A stretch of DNA of 64,000 nucleotides, from contig JAHBTI010000018.1 in the NCBI GenBank assembly GCA_019638705.1, positions 1 through 64,000 of the forward strand. The letters run 5' to 3'. Origin of the DNA: Bacteroidota bacterium. GTDB lineage: Bacteria; Bacteroidota; Bacteroidia; B-17B0; Aurantibacillaceae. Positions 17,788 through 47,917 of the stretch are shown one piece after another. The position numbers and the translations under genes were made by a program. Position 1 is the first letter of the stretch, and each line of letters starts with the position of its first letter. The notes beneath the pieces were generated by a model, which saw only the letters and a list, made by a program, of their open reading frames with translations, searched no databases and was not told where the DNA came from.

Positions 17788-20700
17788 CTAATAAGCCAAC
17801 ACCGTTCCCAACCACTTCTCTACTTCTTCCACACTCATATTTTTTCGTTTGGCGTAATCTTGCACTTGCTCTTTGGTAATTTTTCCTACGCCAAAATAAT
17901 GCGCTCGCGGATTAGCAAAATACAAACCGCTTACCGCAGCAGTCGGGTACATAGCCAAACTGTCGGTAAGTTGAATACCTGTATTTTTTTCAACGTCCAA
18001 TAATTTCCAAATGGTGCGTTTTTCGGTGTGGTCGGGTTGTGCAGGATAGCCGGGTGCGGGGCGAATGCCTTTGTATGTTTCTTTAATCAATTCTTCGTTA
18101 GAAAGATTTTCGCTTTTGGCATAACCCCAAATTTCTTTGCGCACTTTTTTGTGCATCAATTCTGCAAAGGCTTCTGCCAAGCGGTCTGCCAATGCTTTGA
18201 GCATAATAGCAGAATAATCGTCAAAATCTTTTTCAAATTTTGAAATGTGTTTTTCAATGCCGAAACCTGTGCTTAATGCGAATGCGCCAATGTAGTCACA
18301 CTTCTCGACTTCGCTCGAAGTGACAGGTTTAATGAAATCTGAAAGAGCAACATTATATTGTCCTTGCGGTTTTTTGGTTTGCTGACGAATAGAGTGAAAC
18401 ACAAAATTTTCTTTTTCGGTTGTGAGGTTTATATCATCGCCGTTCGCGTTCGCAGGATAAATGCCAATCACCGCTTTTGCAGTCAGCCATTTTTCCAAAA
18501 TAATTTTGCTCAACATGTTTTGCGCATCGTCAAATAATTTTTTTGCTTCTGCGCCGCGTTCTTTGTCGTTAAAAATTTTCGGGTAAGACCCTTTCATTTC
18601 CCAAGAGTGGAAAAACGGTGTCCAGTCAATGTATTCAGAGATTTCTTTTAAATCGTAATCGGTAAAAACTTTTGTGCCGATGAAATTTGGTTTTGCAATT
18701 TCCGTGTTATTCCAGTCAATCGGAAATTTATTTTGTCGCGCTTCTTCCAACGAAATAAATTTATTTTGAGATTGCGCGTTTTTGTTTTGCTCACGCACAC
18801 GCTCGTAATCTTTGTTTACTTCTACTAAAAATTCTTTGCGCAACTCTTCCGAAATTAAATTACTCGCTACAGGCACAGATTTACTTGCGTCGTTTACATG
18901 CACTACCGCGTGAGAATAATTCGGCGCAATTTTTACCGCCGTATGAACTTTAGACGTGGTCGCGCCGCCAATTAACAAAGGAATATTAAAATTTTGTCGC
19001 TCCATTTCTTTGGCAACGTGTACCATTTCGTCCAACGATGGTGTAATCAATCCGCTTAAACCGATGATGTCCACATTTTGTTTTTTGGCTTCTTCCAAAA
19101 TTTTTTCGGAAGATACCATCACGCCCAAATCAATAATTTCATAATTGTTGCAAGCGAGAACAACGCCCACAATGTTTTTACCAATATCGTGAACGTCGCC
19201 TTTTACGGTGGCGAGCAAAATTTTTCCGTTGTTTTTTTGCACGTTGCCGCTTTGTTTTTTTTCTTCTTCCAAATAAGGAAGCAAATACGCCACCGCTTTT
19301 TTCATCACGCGCGCACTCTTTACCACTTGCGGTAAAAACATTTTTCCGCTTCCGAATAAATCGCCCACCACGTTCATTCCGTCCATTAAAGGACCTTCAA
19401 TAATTGACAAAGTTTTGTCAAAAGCTTTGCGACATTCTTCCACATCTTGCTCAATGTAATCGGTAATGCCTTTTACGAGCGAGTGTGTAATACGCTCTTT
19501 TACCGTGCCGTTGCGCCATTCAGCTTCCACTTTACTTTCTTGTGTGCCCGAATGTGAATTTTTTATTTCTTCGGCTTTAGTAATCAAACGTTCGGTTGCA
19601 TCATCGCGGCGATTTAACAAAACATCTTCTACCAATTCCAGCAAATCTTTTTCAATATCGTCGTAAACTACGAGTTGCGCGGGATTTACGATACCCATGT
19701 CCATACCGTTTTTTACGGCGTGAAATAAAAACGCGCTGTGAATGGCTTCGCGCACATGGTCATTACCTCTGAATGAAAAGGAAACGTTGCTTACACCGCC
19801 GCTTACTTTTGCGAAAGGCAAATTTTCTTTAATCCATTTTGTGGCATTGAAAAAATCAAGCGCGTTTAAGCGATGTTCTTCCATGCCCGTAGCCACAGGA
19901 AAAATGTTGGGGTCAAAAATAATGTCCTGTGCAGGGAAATGAATTTTGTTTGTCAAAATATCGTAAGCGCGTTTGCAAATTTCTTTTCTGCGTTCCAACG
20001 TATCGGCTTGCCCTTGCTCGTCAAACGCCATGACGATGACTGCCGCGCCATATTGTTTTATTTTGCGTGCCTGTTCAATAAATTTTTCTTCGCCCTCTTT
20101 CAACGAAATAGAATTAACGATTGCCTTGCCTTGCACACATTTCAAACCCGCTTCAATCACCGTCCATTTGCTGCTGTCAATCATAATCGGAACGCGGGAA
20201 ATATCAGGTTCGGAAGCAATGAGGTTTAAAAATTTTGTCATCGCTGCTTCACCGTCCATCATACCCTCGTCCATGTTCACGTCTATCACTTGCGCACCGC
20301 CTTCTACCTGTTCGCGGGCAATGGACAAAGCTGCTTCGTAATTTTCTTCCTTAATTAAACGCAAGAATTTTTTTGAACCTGTAACGTTGGTGCGTTCACC
20401 CACGTTCATAAAATTGCTTTCGGGACGAAGTGTTACAGGCTCTAATCCGCTCAGGTGCATGAGTGTATCAGCTTCGTGTTTTTTGCGAGGCTTTGATTTT
20501 TCTGCTAACTCGGCAATGCGTTTAATATGCGCGGGTGTTGTGCCGCAGCAACCACCAACGATATTTAAAAATCCTGCTTTGAGAAAATCTTCTATCTGAT
20601 GTCCCATTTCGTGCGCATCTTGGTCGTACTCGCCAAACTGATTTGGCAAACCTGCGTTAGGATATGCAGAAATATAAAACGGTGCTTTGTTACTCAACTC

Positions 20701-21465
20701 TTCCAAATACGGACGCATATCTTTCGCGCCCAGAGCGCAATTCAAACCAACGCTCAATAAGTCAACGTGAGAAACGGAATTTAAAAATGCTTCGGTAGTT
20801 TGTCCTGATAATGTTCTTCCGCTTGCATCGGTAATTGTTCCTGAAATCATCACTGGCAGAGAAATATTTTTTTCTTCAAATACTTGTTGTGCTGCAAATA
20901 AAGCTGACTTTGCATTCAACGTGTCGGTAATGGTTTCAATCAACAATAAATCCACACCACCGTCCACCAAACCTTCAATTTGTTCTTTGTAAGCGGCAGT
21001 CATTTCGTCAAAGCTCACGGCGCGGAAACCCGGATTATTTACATCGGGTGACATAGAAAGCAGTTTGGTTGTTGGTCCCATTGCACCCGCTACAAAGCGA
21101 GGTTTTTTGGGATTTTTAGCAGTGTATTCATCTGCTATTTTGCGTGCTACTTTTGCGGCTGCAAGGTTTAGTTCGTAGCAAATAGTTTGCAAATCGTAAT
21201 CTGCCATTGACACGCGGTTGCTGCTGAAAGAGTTAGTTTCAATAATATCTGCGCCTGCTTCCAAATATTGTTTGTGAATTTCGGCAATCACATCAGGGCG
21301 CGTAATGCAAAGCAAATCGTTGTTGCCTTTTTGGTCTTGATTAAAATTTTTAAAACGTTCGCCTCTGAAATCCGCTTCAGTCAATTTGTATTGTTGAATG
21401 AGCGAACCCATGGCTCCGTCAATGACGAGCACTCGTTTTTCTAATTCTTTTTTTATGTTGTTCAT
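17788..21465 (-). CDS. metH: cobalamin-dependent methionine synthase
   Basis: Transfers a methyl group from 5-methyltetrahydrofolate to homocysteine via cobalamin. From the ATG at 21465 it has 1225 residues, a full-length four-module enzyme. These are homocysteine binding (about 5-325, zinc motif GGCCGT), pterin binding (about 350-620, [14 protein letters not shown]), cobalamin binding (about 645-890, [11 protein letters not shown] with the axial histidine) and the SAM-dependent reactivation domain (about 900-1225, [15 protein letters not shown]). Expression is predicted to be controlled by the SAM-I riboswitch at 21687-21865. Odd point: bases 18295-18324 (about residues 1047-1057) are an extragenic-type palindrome that encodes a local insertion near TSSEVEKC in the activation domain. 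Confidence 0.97.
18295..18324. repeat. extragenic-type palindrome inside metH
   Basis: GTCACACTTC...GAAGTGAC forms a near-perfect hairpin around CTCGACTTCGCTCGA. Its core TTCTCGACTTCGCTCGAA (18302-18319) is the exact reverse complement of 45082-45099, in an intergenic repeat 27 kb away. Here it is read through in frame as part of MetH. Confidence 0.75.
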
Positions 21466-21480
21466 ATACTGTTTTAAAAT

Positions 21481-21600
21481 AAACCACATAGGAACATAGG
21501 CTGCATAGTGCTATGTCATTCTGAGCGATAGCGAAGAAACTCATAGATGCTTCCTTCGTCAGCATGACAAAAGATGTTTATGTGTTCTATGTGGTTAAAT
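21481..21600. repeat. nested palindromic element in the metH leader
   Basis: Outer arms AACCACATAG (21482-21491) and CTATGTGGTT (21587-21596) enclose a second palindrome running from TGTCATTCTGAGCG (21514) to ATGACA (21564-21569) with GCGAAGAA and TTCCTTCG blocks. The TGTCATTCTGAGCG word is a familiar Bacteroidota extragenic repeat. It fills nearly all of the leader between the riboswitch terminator and the metH ATG. Confidence 0.75.
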
Positions 21601-21610
21601 TACATTTCAT

Positions 21611-21646
21611 AAAATAAAAAATCCCTTCACGTTATCGGAAGGGATT
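21611..21646 (-). terminator. riboswitch-controlled terminator before metH
   Basis: On the minus strand AATCCCTTC (21646-21638) pairs with GAAGGGATT (21628-21620), followed by TTTTTATTTTA. The 5' arm can instead pair with leader sequence just after P1: TCGGAA...ATTAG against CTAAT...TTCCGA. This gives a plausible antiterminator when SAM is absent. Confidence 0.8.
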
Positions 21647-21686
21647 AGCATTATTGTTTTTTGTTGTTATTACTAATTTGTTTCCG

Positions 21687-21865
21687 ACTTATTTTTCCTC
21701 AATTAATTTTTGAGAACGAATTACCACCTTCTTTTTCGTTTAGTTTTTAGTTTGAAGTTTTTAGTTTGAAGTTGGCTGACTTCAAACTTCTTACTTCAGA
21801 CTTCCAACTTAAAAAAGGGTTGGTAAAGCTTCACAGGGCGTATCCCTCTGCTTTTCTGAATAAGT
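21687..21865 (-). promoter_or_regulatory. SAM-I riboswitch aptamer controlling metH
   Basis: Read on the minus strand, P1 is ACTTATT (21865-21859) pairing perfectly with AATAAGT (21693-21687). The core between follows the SAM-I consensus: TTATTCAGA, then GCAGAGGGATACGCCCTGTG, AAGCTTTACCAACCC, later AAGGTGGTAATTC and a P4 hairpin CTCAA/TTGAG. It ends just before an intrinsic terminator and 222 bases before metH, so high S-adenosylmethionine should end transcription early. P3 is unusually long because a repeat (21746-21812) fills its loop. Confidence 0.9.
21746..21812. repeat. AACTTCAAACT repeat inserted in riboswitch P3 loop
   Basis: TTTAGTTTGAAGTT blocks followed by ACTTCAAACTTC and ACTTCAGACTTCC form a hairpin with AGTTTGAAGT / ACTTCAAACT arms. 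It lies exactly between the two P3 strands of the SAM riboswitch (CTTTTTT and GAAAAAG). The same word in tandem is found inside hisS at 27769-27796. Confidence 0.75.
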
Positions 21866-22002
21866 GTTTTAAAAGAACGCGGTGCAAAAATAATGATTTA
21901 ATGTTATTCAAAAAAACTCTGTACATAATTCAACAATTTTTTCATGGGTATGCCGTAATGTATATTAGTACATTTGCCTGTATTAAGACAAAAGAACATT
22001 AA

Positions 22003-26934: not shown

Positions 26935-28323
26935 ATGAAACCTTCCATTCCAAGAGGCACACGAGACTTTAGCCCTTCTGATATGCAGAAGCGCAACTAC
27001 ATTTTAAACTGCATTCGCAAAAATTTTGAACTCTTCGGCTTTCAGCAAATTGAAACGCCTGCTATGGAAAACATCAGCACACTCACAGGAAAATACGGTG
27101 ATGAGGGCGACCAACTGATTTTTAAAATTCTCAATTCGCGCATACACGAAAGCAAAAACAAAGAGGTGATGCGAAAAGAATTTGAACTCTCTTTACAATC
27201 TTCTCGTAACTCCGAAGAACTCACCGAAAAAGCCTTGCGTTACGATTTAACCGTTCCCTTTGCGCGTTATGTGGTGATGAACCAAAACGACATTACATTT
27301 CCCTTTCGCCGCTACCAAATACAACCCGTGTGGCGCGCCGACAGACCACAGAAGGGGCGTTACCGCGAATTTTACCAATGCGATGCCGACATGATTGGCA
27401 GCAATTCTTTAACCAATGAATTAGAATTAATTTCCCTGATTGATAAATCATTTTCGGAATTGAATGTTCCTGTGATTTTGAAATTCAATAACCGAAAAAT
27501 TTTAACCGCACTTGCCGAAGTGATTAACGAACGCGATAAAATTATTGACATCACCGTTGCGATTGATAAATTAGACAAGATTGGTAAAGAGGGCGTGAAC
27601 AAAGAACTTTTGGAAAAAGGCATTTCGCAGGAAGCCGTAAATAAATTGCAACCGCTTTTAGATTTTAAAGGAACAAACGAAGAAAAAGTTGAAGTATTAA
27701 AAAATTTGTTGGGCAATAACGAAACAGGAAAAAAAGGCATTGAAGAAATTGAATTTATTTTAAACGCCAACTTCAAACTTCAAACTTCAAACTTAGAACT
27801 TGATATTACTTTAGCTCGCGGTTTAAACTACTACACAGGAACTATTTTTGAAGTAAAAGCAAACGCAGGAACATTTACACCAAGCATTTTGGGCGGCGGA
27901 CGTTACGATGACCTCACGGGAATTTTCGGATTACCGAATATGAGCGGCGTGGGCATTTCCTTTGGCATTGACCGCATTTATGATGTAATGGAAGAACTGA
28001 ATGTATTTCCCGAACAAATCAGTAAAGCGGCATCATGTTCTATGTTGTTTACGCACTTTGACGAAGTTTCGCAAGCGCATTGTTTACAATTGGCGGTAGA
28101 ATTGCGCAATCAAAATATTTCCTGCGAAGTATATCCCGATGTAAGCAAAAAAATAGGCAAGCAATTTGATTACGCCAACAAAAAAAATATTCCTTTTGTG
28201 TGCACCGTTGGCAGCAACGAAATAGAAAAACAAATTTATGCTATTAAGTACATGGAAAGCGGAAACAAACAAGAGTTGAATTTGCAAGACATGATTGATT
28301 ATTTAAAAACAGAATTAAAATGA
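26935..28323 (+). CDS. hisS: histidyl-tRNA synthetase
   Basis: Charges tRNA-His. A 462-residue class II synthetase. It opens with RGTRDFSPSDMQKRN; motif 2 is YQIQPVWRADRPQKGRYREF; the histidine motifs are LARGLNYYTGTIFEV and GGGRYDDLTGIFGLP; motif 3 is GVGISFGIDRI. The anticodon-binding domain fills the last 90 residues. Bases 27769-27796, just before the LARGLNYYTG motif, are a tandem CTTCAAA repeat encoding FKLQTSNL, apparently of extragenic-repeat origin. Its stop overlaps hutH (ATGA), coupling the two genes. Confidence 0.96.
   Translation: MKPSIPRGTRDFSPSDMQKRNYILNCIRKNFELFGFQQIETPAMENISTLTGKYGDEGDQLIFKILNSRIHESKNKEVMRKEFELSLQSSRNSEELTEKALRYDLTVPFARYVVMNQNDITFPFRRYQIQPVWRADRPQKGRYREFYQCDADMIGSNSLTNELELISLIDKSFSELNVPVILKFNNRKILTALAEVINERDKIIDITVAIDKLDKIGKEGVNKELLEKGISQEAVNKLQPLLDFKGTNEEKVEVLKNLLGNNETGKKGIEEIEFILNANFKLQTSNLELDITLARGLNYYTGTIFEVKANAGTFTPSILGGGRYDDLTGIFGLPNMSGVGISFGIDRIYDVMEELNVFPEQISKAASCSMLFTHFDEVSQAHCLQLAVELRNQNISCEVYPDVSKKIGKQFDYANKKNIPFVCTVGSNEIEKQIYAIKYMESGNKQELNLQDMIDYLKTELK
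27769..27796. repeat. tandem CTTCAAA repeat inside hisS
   Basis: CTTCAAA occurs three times in tandem (27771-27791) plus a partial unit, followed by TAGAACTT. It matches the word AACTTCAAACTTC of the riboswitch insertion at 21746-21812. It is translated in frame as part of HisRS. Confidence 0.75.
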
Positions 28324-46773: not shown

Positions 46774-46983
46774 ATGAAATTTGGAAATCTTATCTCTTTT
46801 TGGTTTGGTGCAATCATGATTGTGCTTGTAACAAGTGGCGCATTCGCGTTTACATTCACCAATTTTATGGACGACAGATTATTCGGCACAAAGCGCGTAG
46901 TGTTTATTCTTATACTCATAGCTTACGCCATATATCGCGGTTTCAGATTGTATCACTTAATAAAAAATTCTGATGATAAATAA
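46774..46983 (+). CDS. small two-helix membrane protein
   Basis: A 69-residue protein with two hydrophobic stretches (FWFGAIMIVLVTSGAFAF and VVFILILIAYAIYRGF), a short basic end and no known domain. It overlaps the start of the PstS-like gene by 11 bases and probably is cotranscribed with it. Similar tiny membrane proteins sit beside TonB/PstS-like genes in Bacteroidota, but I cannot name a family. Confidence 0.65.
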   Translation: MKFGNLISFWFGAIMIVLVTSGAFAFTFTNFMDDRLFGTKRVVFILILIAYAIYRGFRLYHLIKNSDDK

Positions 46984-47917
46984 GATTTTAGATTTAAGAT
47001 TTAAGATTTCTGCGCGTTCTTTACTTCTTAAATCATACTTCATACTTCTGACTTTTTCCTCTTGCGAGTACGAAAAAGACAACACTCCTACCTCAGGAAA
47101 ACTAAAAGTGTATTACGATGAAGGCATTGAAACGCATTTACAAAGTCAGGTTTATACCTTTGAAGTGTTGTATGAAAATGTAAGCGTTGAATTAATACAA
47201 TCTTCCGAAAACCACGCCGTGCAAGCCCTGTATGCCGACAGTTGCGAAGCAATCGTCATTTCGCGCTTGCTGAGCGAAGAAGAAAAAAAAGTGTTTGCAA
47301 GTAAACAATGGTTTCCAAAATATTCTTTGGCAGCAAAAAGCGGCATTGCGTTTATCACCAATGTTCAAACGCCAATCAAAAAATTTTCTTACGATGAAAT
47401 TATTTCATTGCTCACCAACACGTCAGCCCTGAAAGACAGCGCAGACAAAGAAATAAAATTGAAAGTGCTGTTTGATAAAAACAATTCTTCGGTGTTGCAT
47501 TACATGATTGACAGTGTATTGCAAGGAAAAAAATTATCGCCCGATTGTAATAGTGCAAATTCTACTTTAGATTGCATTAATTATGTGGCACAAAACAAAA
47601 ATGTTATTGGAATAATTGATTTTGCTTGGCTTAGCGATGTGGACGACAGTTTGTTTAAAGCAAACAAAGACAAAATCAAATTTATTCCTGTAAGCAAAAA
47701 CGATACAGCGTATTATTACCCAGACCAAAGTAATTTTAAACTCGGTCTGTATCCGTTCACACGCGGCATTTACGTTATTCGCAAAACAGGCGATTTTACT
47801 TTAGCCAAAGGTTTTGAAAGTTTTGTGGCAGGACCAAAAGGACAACTCATGTTTTTGAAACAAGGCTTGCTTCCTGCACGGCAGAGCGAACGTTCTATTG
47901 AAGTGAAGACTAATTAG
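46973..47917 (+). CDS. PstS-like substrate-binding lipoprotein
   Basis: A 314-residue periplasmic-binding-protein-like lipoprotein. Signal region residues 13-31 end in LTFSSC (lipobox Cys31). The mature part resembles PstS: LKVYYDEGIETHLQSQ, AIVISRLLSEEEKKVF (the block where phosphate binders read 'SR'), GIAFITN and IGIIDFAWLSD. No pstC/A/B genes are nearby; its neighbours are tonB and a TPR protein. The first dozen codons (KILDLRFKI) are made of an AAGATTTTAGATTT-type repeat, so the start codon may be secondary. Ligand unknown; phosphate is a guess from fold. Confidence 0.75.
   Translation: MINKILDLRFKISARSLLLKSYFILLTFSSCEYEKDNTPTSGKLKVYYDEGIETHLQSQVYTFEVLYENVSVELIQSSENHAVQALYADSCEAIVISRLLSEEEKKVFASKQWFPKYSLAAKSGIAFITNVQTPIKKFSYDEIISLLTNTSALKDSADKEIKLKVLFDKNNSSVLHYMIDSVLQGKKLSPDCNSANSTLDCINYVAQNKNVIGIIDFAWLSDVDDSLFKANKDKIKFIPVSKNDTAYYYPDQSNFKLGLYPFTRGIYVIRKTGDFTLAKGFESFVAGPKGQLMFLKQGLLPARQSERSIEVKTN
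46984..47011. repeat. AGATTTAAGATTT tandem repeat forming the start of the PstS-like gene
   Basis: AGATTTTAGATTTAAGATTTAAGATTT is a tandem of about seven to nine bases related to the outer arms at 45046-45058. It is read in frame as KILDLRFKI at the N-terminus of the lipoprotein. Confidence 0.6.

Follow-up and report, generated by a model that had tools for sequence, protein, structure and literature searches.

The window, by which we mean the whole stretch of 64,000 nucleotides that was analysed, contains a full SAM-I riboswitch upstream of the B12-dependent methionine synthase gene metH (positions 21686–21866, minus strand). The switch is probably functional, and the tip of its P3 helix probably serves as a recurrent docking site for dispersed hairpin elements built of 7-nt units (heptads), which are swapped between species. 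A covariance-model scan with RF00162 returned a full-length match (model positions 1–108 of 108) on the minus strand from 21866 to 21686, with a score of 65.5 bits (E = 5.4e-13) that exceeds the gathering score of 44.4 bits. An RF00162 search of the 3.22-Mb genome to which the window belongs (G000) located SAM-I matches at 21686–21866 (minus strand) alone. A first-pass annotation had placed a SAM-I riboswitch before metH and had described a perfect P1 and a terminator/antiterminator pair; the scan and the sequence bear out all three. The features discussed below are these:

21686..21866, minus strand: SAM-I riboswitch aptamer, P3 insert included (RF00162 covariance-model match)
21859..21865, minus strand: P1 5' strand, ACTTATT (sequence, covariance-model alignment)
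21687..21693, minus strand: P1 3' strand, AATAAGT (sequence, covariance-model alignment)
21811..21819, minus strand: base of P3, 5' side, CCCTTTTTT (sequence, fold)
21737..21810, minus strand: 74-nt heptad hairpin inserted in P3 (7-nt periodicity, MFE, genomic matches)
21778..21810, minus strand: 5' arm of the insert, AAGTTGG AAGTCTG AAGTAAG AAGTTTG AAGTC (sequence, fold)
21739..21773, minus strand: 3' arm of the insert, AACTTCA AACTAAA AACTTCA AACTAAA AACTAAA (sequence, TRF period 7/14, fold)
21727..21736, minus strand: base of P3, 3' side, AAAAAGAAGG (sequence, fold)
21635..21687, minus strand: antiterminator region (sequence; TCGG-CCGA becomes TCAG-CTGA in relatives)
21611..21646, minus strand: intrinsic terminator, stem AATCCCTTC/GAAGGGATT with U-run (sequence; same stem in most relatives)
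17788..21453, minus strand: metH, cobalamin-dependent methionine synthase (Pfam PF02574, PF00809, PF02607, PF02310, PF02965)
27769..27800, plus strand: heptad array inside hisS, built of words from the family of the P3 insert (TRF, ORF, HisRS alignment)

The P1 strands ACTTATT (21865–21859) and AATAAGT (21693–21687) pair perfectly, and the expression platform contains both a terminator and a mutually exclusive antiterminator. Two antiterminator pairings can be read from the sequence, TCGGAA (21687–21682) with TTCCGA (21640–21635) and ATTAG (21677–21673) with CTAAT (21648–21644). In relatives, TCGGA/TTCCG is replaced by TCAGA/TTCTG with both sides changed, and the segment behind P1 matches the 5' side of the terminator in nearly all relatives in which a terminator was found. 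All five expected MetH Pfam domains are present in the gene downstream. Binding of SAM would stabilise P1 and block the antiterminator, leaving the terminator to stop metH transcription; the antiterminator would form when SAM is absent. From its family membership we infer that the switch binds SAM and that metH responds to it, also in vivo.

Another palindromic repeat is found downstream of the terminator, ahead of the metH start codon (21482–21596, minus strand). It has the ends AACCACATAG/CTATGTGGTT and carries GTCATGCTGACGAAGGAAGCATCT in its inner part, and pieces of it (26–36 nt at 92–97% identity) recur in the sampled DNA of the same genome.

The insert in P3 is a palindrome of degenerate 7-nt units, in which AGTTNNA arms face TNNAACT arms. 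Five heptads of the AAGTNNG type are followed by a short centre and by five heptads of the AACTNNA type, and the predicted fold indicates that the insert can form one hairpin that prolongs P3. Both the 7-nt periodicity (z = 7.5) and the folding energy (MFE z = -4.0 against dinucleotide shuffles) stand out. The element is located where the first pass had placed it, between the two P3 strands, and its length is about 74 nt rather than the 67 bases given there. The tip of P3 faces away from the ligand pocket, and since the elements are palindromic they should merely lengthen P3, so that the aptamer still folds.

The resident element belongs to an AACT-heptad family with abundant further copies across the genome, in agreement with the earlier observation that words of the P3 insert recur. 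A search of the 3.22 Mb with the 74-nt insert as query returned 58 partial matches (E ≤ 10), of which about half lie at E < 0.02. The best match other than the insert reaches E = 7.7e-10, and several matches span a whole palindrome of 60–72 nt at 72–76% identity. The exact AACT heptad triple AACTNNNAACTNNNAACT has 103 copies compared with 24 for a reversed control, raw repeat counts being inflated by chance matches, and the figures for DNA beyond the window derive from chunks selected in part for repeat matches, together with whole-genome pattern searches. Within the genus, the count of this triple is exceeded in G010 alone (150), and in most genomes it is below 20. The copies sit in short intergenic spaces and some lie within predicted reading frames; direct heptad arrays that lack a second arm are also present. 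One array is formed by four AACTTCA units in the coding frame of hisS (ANFKLQTSNLEL). The first pass had cited hisS for an extragenic repeat; the word family is indeed there, but inside coding sequence. We considered that this array might lengthen the protein and rejected the idea, as alignment to a solved HisRS reveals no extra residues in that loop.

An array with another core, TAAGATT / AATCTTA, is found at 46981–47009 of the window and belongs to the AATCT family, which occupies P3 in other species.

We located SAM-I switches in 56 of 60 relatives. In the metH-type switch, 32 of the 37 genomes of the genus (G000 included) carry a P3 insert of 66–116 nt, mostly 79–91 nt, and in the remaining five the insert measures 14–42 nt. 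Compared with shuffled sequence, and counting an insert as periodic at z of at least 2.9, 27 of the 32 long inserts have a 7-nt period (z 2.9–8.9; 28 of 33 with G041), and for several the predicted fold is much more stable than that of shuffles. The hairpins of G008 (L140) and G034 (L146) have periods of 9 and 8 nt, respectively, and no clear period is seen in G004, G005, G017, and G020, the last of which leans to 7 (z 1.9). Beyond the genus, the relatives of the class that we inspected at sequence level have a short P3, except G041, a member of another family that carries its own, different heptad hairpin; the association with P3 has thus arisen at least twice or is patchily shared. The P3 loops of the metH leaders differ widely in sequence and do not represent one conserved aptamer part. 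The compensatory change in the antiterminator is seen across genomes with a long P3, which argues that the attenuator is under selection with the inserts in place. Together with the full-length RF00162 match and the conserved core, this covariation suggests that aptamer and switch are intact around the repeat, as had been proposed. Of the earlier picture of a repeat that landed opportunistically in a neutral loop, the dispersed repeat class and the intact switch thus stand, but a single landing does not: 32 of the 37 genomes of the genus have a long P3 hairpin, and these hairpins are exchanged block-wise between species.

Other arrangements around SAM-I switches were noted in the relatives. 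A methyltransferase-like ORF lies between the switch and metH in G003, G022, G030, G033, and G008 (L092, L095, L096, L104, and L140), and an ORF starting with a KENQNIE motif directly follows the switch in G036 and G014 (L106 and L113). Many relatives (L123–L145) have a second, divergent SAM-I type with a GAGAGAATAGGCTC core and a normal P3, located before genes that resemble homoserine acetyltransferase or O-acetylhomoserine sulfhydrylase. The RF00162 search did not return this type in the genome of the window.

Comparison of P3 between species revealed identities that are high in some pairs (0.92–0.96) and at or near the level of shuffled sequence in others that are equally or more closely related. 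G012 and G032 share 0.96 of P3 while their metH genes are 0.815 identical; the P3 values for G016/G030 and G026/G035 are 0.93 and 0.92. In G006 and G021, the 5' part of the aptamer and the J3/4-P4-P1 part are both completely identical (1.00), the linker is 0.96 and metH 0.879 identical, but P3 only 0.65, with shuffled sequence at about 0.55. Judged from these alignments, P3 sequence turnover between species is all-or-none, with the flanks intact. On a metH DNA tree (one gene, with open forks and five rows half filled or less), the P3 families require 14 changes over 28 labelled rows, compared with 15–20 in 200 label shuffles, and they thus carry a slight phylogenetic signal. The homology of some P3 families is uncertain because the sequence is of low complexity.

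A second intergenic locus, unrelated to the switch (G006:C14:273100), likewise carries heptad hairpins, whose families vary with the species and overlap with those seen in P3. The G022 P3 hairpin and the second locus of G016 agree at 83% over 58 ungapped bases, and the P3 hairpin of G010 is 76% identical to the second locus of G019 over 71 bases. In G012 this locus is empty, with 8 nt (G012:C4:77749-77756, L299) compared with hairpins of 60–80 nt in close relatives; the filled/empty pair shows no clear target-site duplication of the kind left by MITEs, and its flanks have diverged. The presence of heptads is linked between the two loci: genomes with heptads in P3 have them at the second locus in a ratio of 17 with to 8 without, compared with 0 to 9 for genomes whose P3 lacks them (Fisher p = 0.0009, kinship ignored). 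Within genomes, the similarity of P3 and second locus is weakly above permutation (p = 0.009, and 0.04 without the near-duplicate G021, kinship ignored), and we did not retain genome-wide heptad 'dialects' maintained by concerted evolution, for which these same values (p = 0.009; 0.04 without G021) are weak. Period-7 arrays reach 45 per Mb in G001, while other periods stay at about 1 per Mb. In G027, where P3 and the second locus are both short, three hits were obtained in 348 kb, one of them a run of N, and period 7 does not dominate the repeats. A rule by which P3 copies the most abundant heptad of its own genome holds for G000 (AACT) and fails generally: in genomes whose P3 contains GTTTC, AATCT, or CAATT, these patterns are rare, several P3 families have few further copies in their respective genomes, and the exact CAATT triple occurs in G016 and G030 in P3 only.

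The reading we favour is that P3 has long been a docking site at which elements made of palindromic 7-nt units may insert, disappear, and substitute for one another between species; dispersed elements would be gained and lost at a tolerated site, with exchange of alleles contributing. A chance insertion in the present strain only is highly improbable. Four species with a short P3 do fall into the nearest metH clade, but long heptad hairpins are present in G022, the supported sister of G000 on the metH tree, and in most of the genus. That selection maintains the hairpin as a component of the switch, for instance in the timing of transcription or in protein binding, with length and pairing kept, sequence free, and heptads as the raw material, we consider improbable. 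Its near-universal presence in the genus, at a rather constant size, leaves room for a functional role, and the pair with 96% identity in P3 at 81.5% in metH would fit such a role. Against it, an unrelated locus outside any SAM switch harbours hairpins of equal size and from the same families, P3 is short in most other families of the class and in five genomes of the genus (14–42 nt), and two of these five, G027 and G028, keep a standard terminator and antiterminator.

Two further routes concern how P3 is replaced. Leader DNA received by transfer might recombine through the conserved aptamer flanks, with no mobility of the element at this site; as an account of the whole, this is rather unlikely. 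It would explain identical P3 alleles in distant branches of the metH tree and could use flanks of 45–50 nt that are almost identical, but leaves unexplained the same families at the second locus in other species and the dispersed genomic copies. It is also unlikely that the hairpins are made in place by 7-nt slippage and arm-to-arm templated repair, their likeness across loci reflecting a shared mutational habit. Direct arrays without a second arm exist, the hisS array leaves protein length unchanged, and heptamers are abundant in most bacterial genomes, with polymerase slippage as the proposed cause (PMC4679880). Rewriting in place would nevertheless need enormous rate differences between pairs (0.96 compared with shuffled-level identity), and 83% identity over 58 ungapped bases across loci is hard to reach by convergence. 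We infer that inserts are tolerated in vivo and that P3 is replaced through mobility of the elements rather than by exchange of transferred alleles or by rapid rewriting in place. For the heptad elements we found no transposase, terminal signature, target duplication, or donor-recipient event, and the RAYT motif MPNHxHx[LIV] is absent from about 2 Mb sampled across nine genomes (partial coverage). More speculatively, the dispersed hairpins might form a class defined by its 7-nt period and palindromic arms and not by sequence, whose many families replace one another at fixed sites, the P3 tip being one; this form might be recognised by an element-specific mobilising machinery or be written by a heptad-copying process, a proposal that we hold tentatively.

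To our knowledge, the source of long 'variable insertions' in riboswitches is seldom known. Here such a source can be named, and the swap can be localised to closely related species. One aptamer comes in many natural replicates with different P3 hairpins, which renders the tolerance of an RNA switch to insertion directly testable. Our findings also point to a class of 7-nt-periodic hairpins in uncultured Bacteroidia of which we found no description in the literature searched, where 7-nt-periodic hairpins swapped inside a riboswitch have indirect precedents only.

Comparison with REPINs, the REP elements that RAYT enzymes (Y1 tyrosine transposases) mobilise (Bertels and Rainey 2011, PMC3116915), reveals short, mostly extragenic, dispersed palindromes in several families that form hairpins from inverted doublets; the many copies found here (103 compared with 24 triples) are likewise palindromic. 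The present elements differ by their internal 7-nt periodicity, by having no fixed REP core across families, and by the absence of a RAYT in the sampled DNA; copies in G000 share a degenerate 7-nt word, with whole-element identities of about 72–76%. Heptamer arrays such as TAACTGA, known from some Bacteroidetes, are exact direct repeats located mostly before start codons, and heptamers are the most abundant repeats of 5–11 nt in most bacterial genomes (MacGregor 2015, PMC4679880). Intergenic 7-nt units are common to both, but we rejected an assignment to exact direct tandem heptamers, as the units here are degenerate, lie in two inverted arms, and vary in their cores by species. As a member of the SAM-I (S-box) family RF00162, the switch has a full aptamer match, an attenuator layout, and a gene of methionine metabolism, and differs in a P3 that a repeat element has lengthened to 88 nt. 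Insertions at P3 are already known to be tolerated; the identity of the insert, its recurrence across the genus, and its swapping appear to be new. Barrick and Breaker (2007, PMC2258182) described 'variable insertions' in riboswitches. As in those cases, a long non-conserved stem-loop occupies a tolerated site and leaves the core undisturbed; here, in contrast, it is traced to dispersed families of 7-nt-periodic hairpins that are swapped block-wise between close species.
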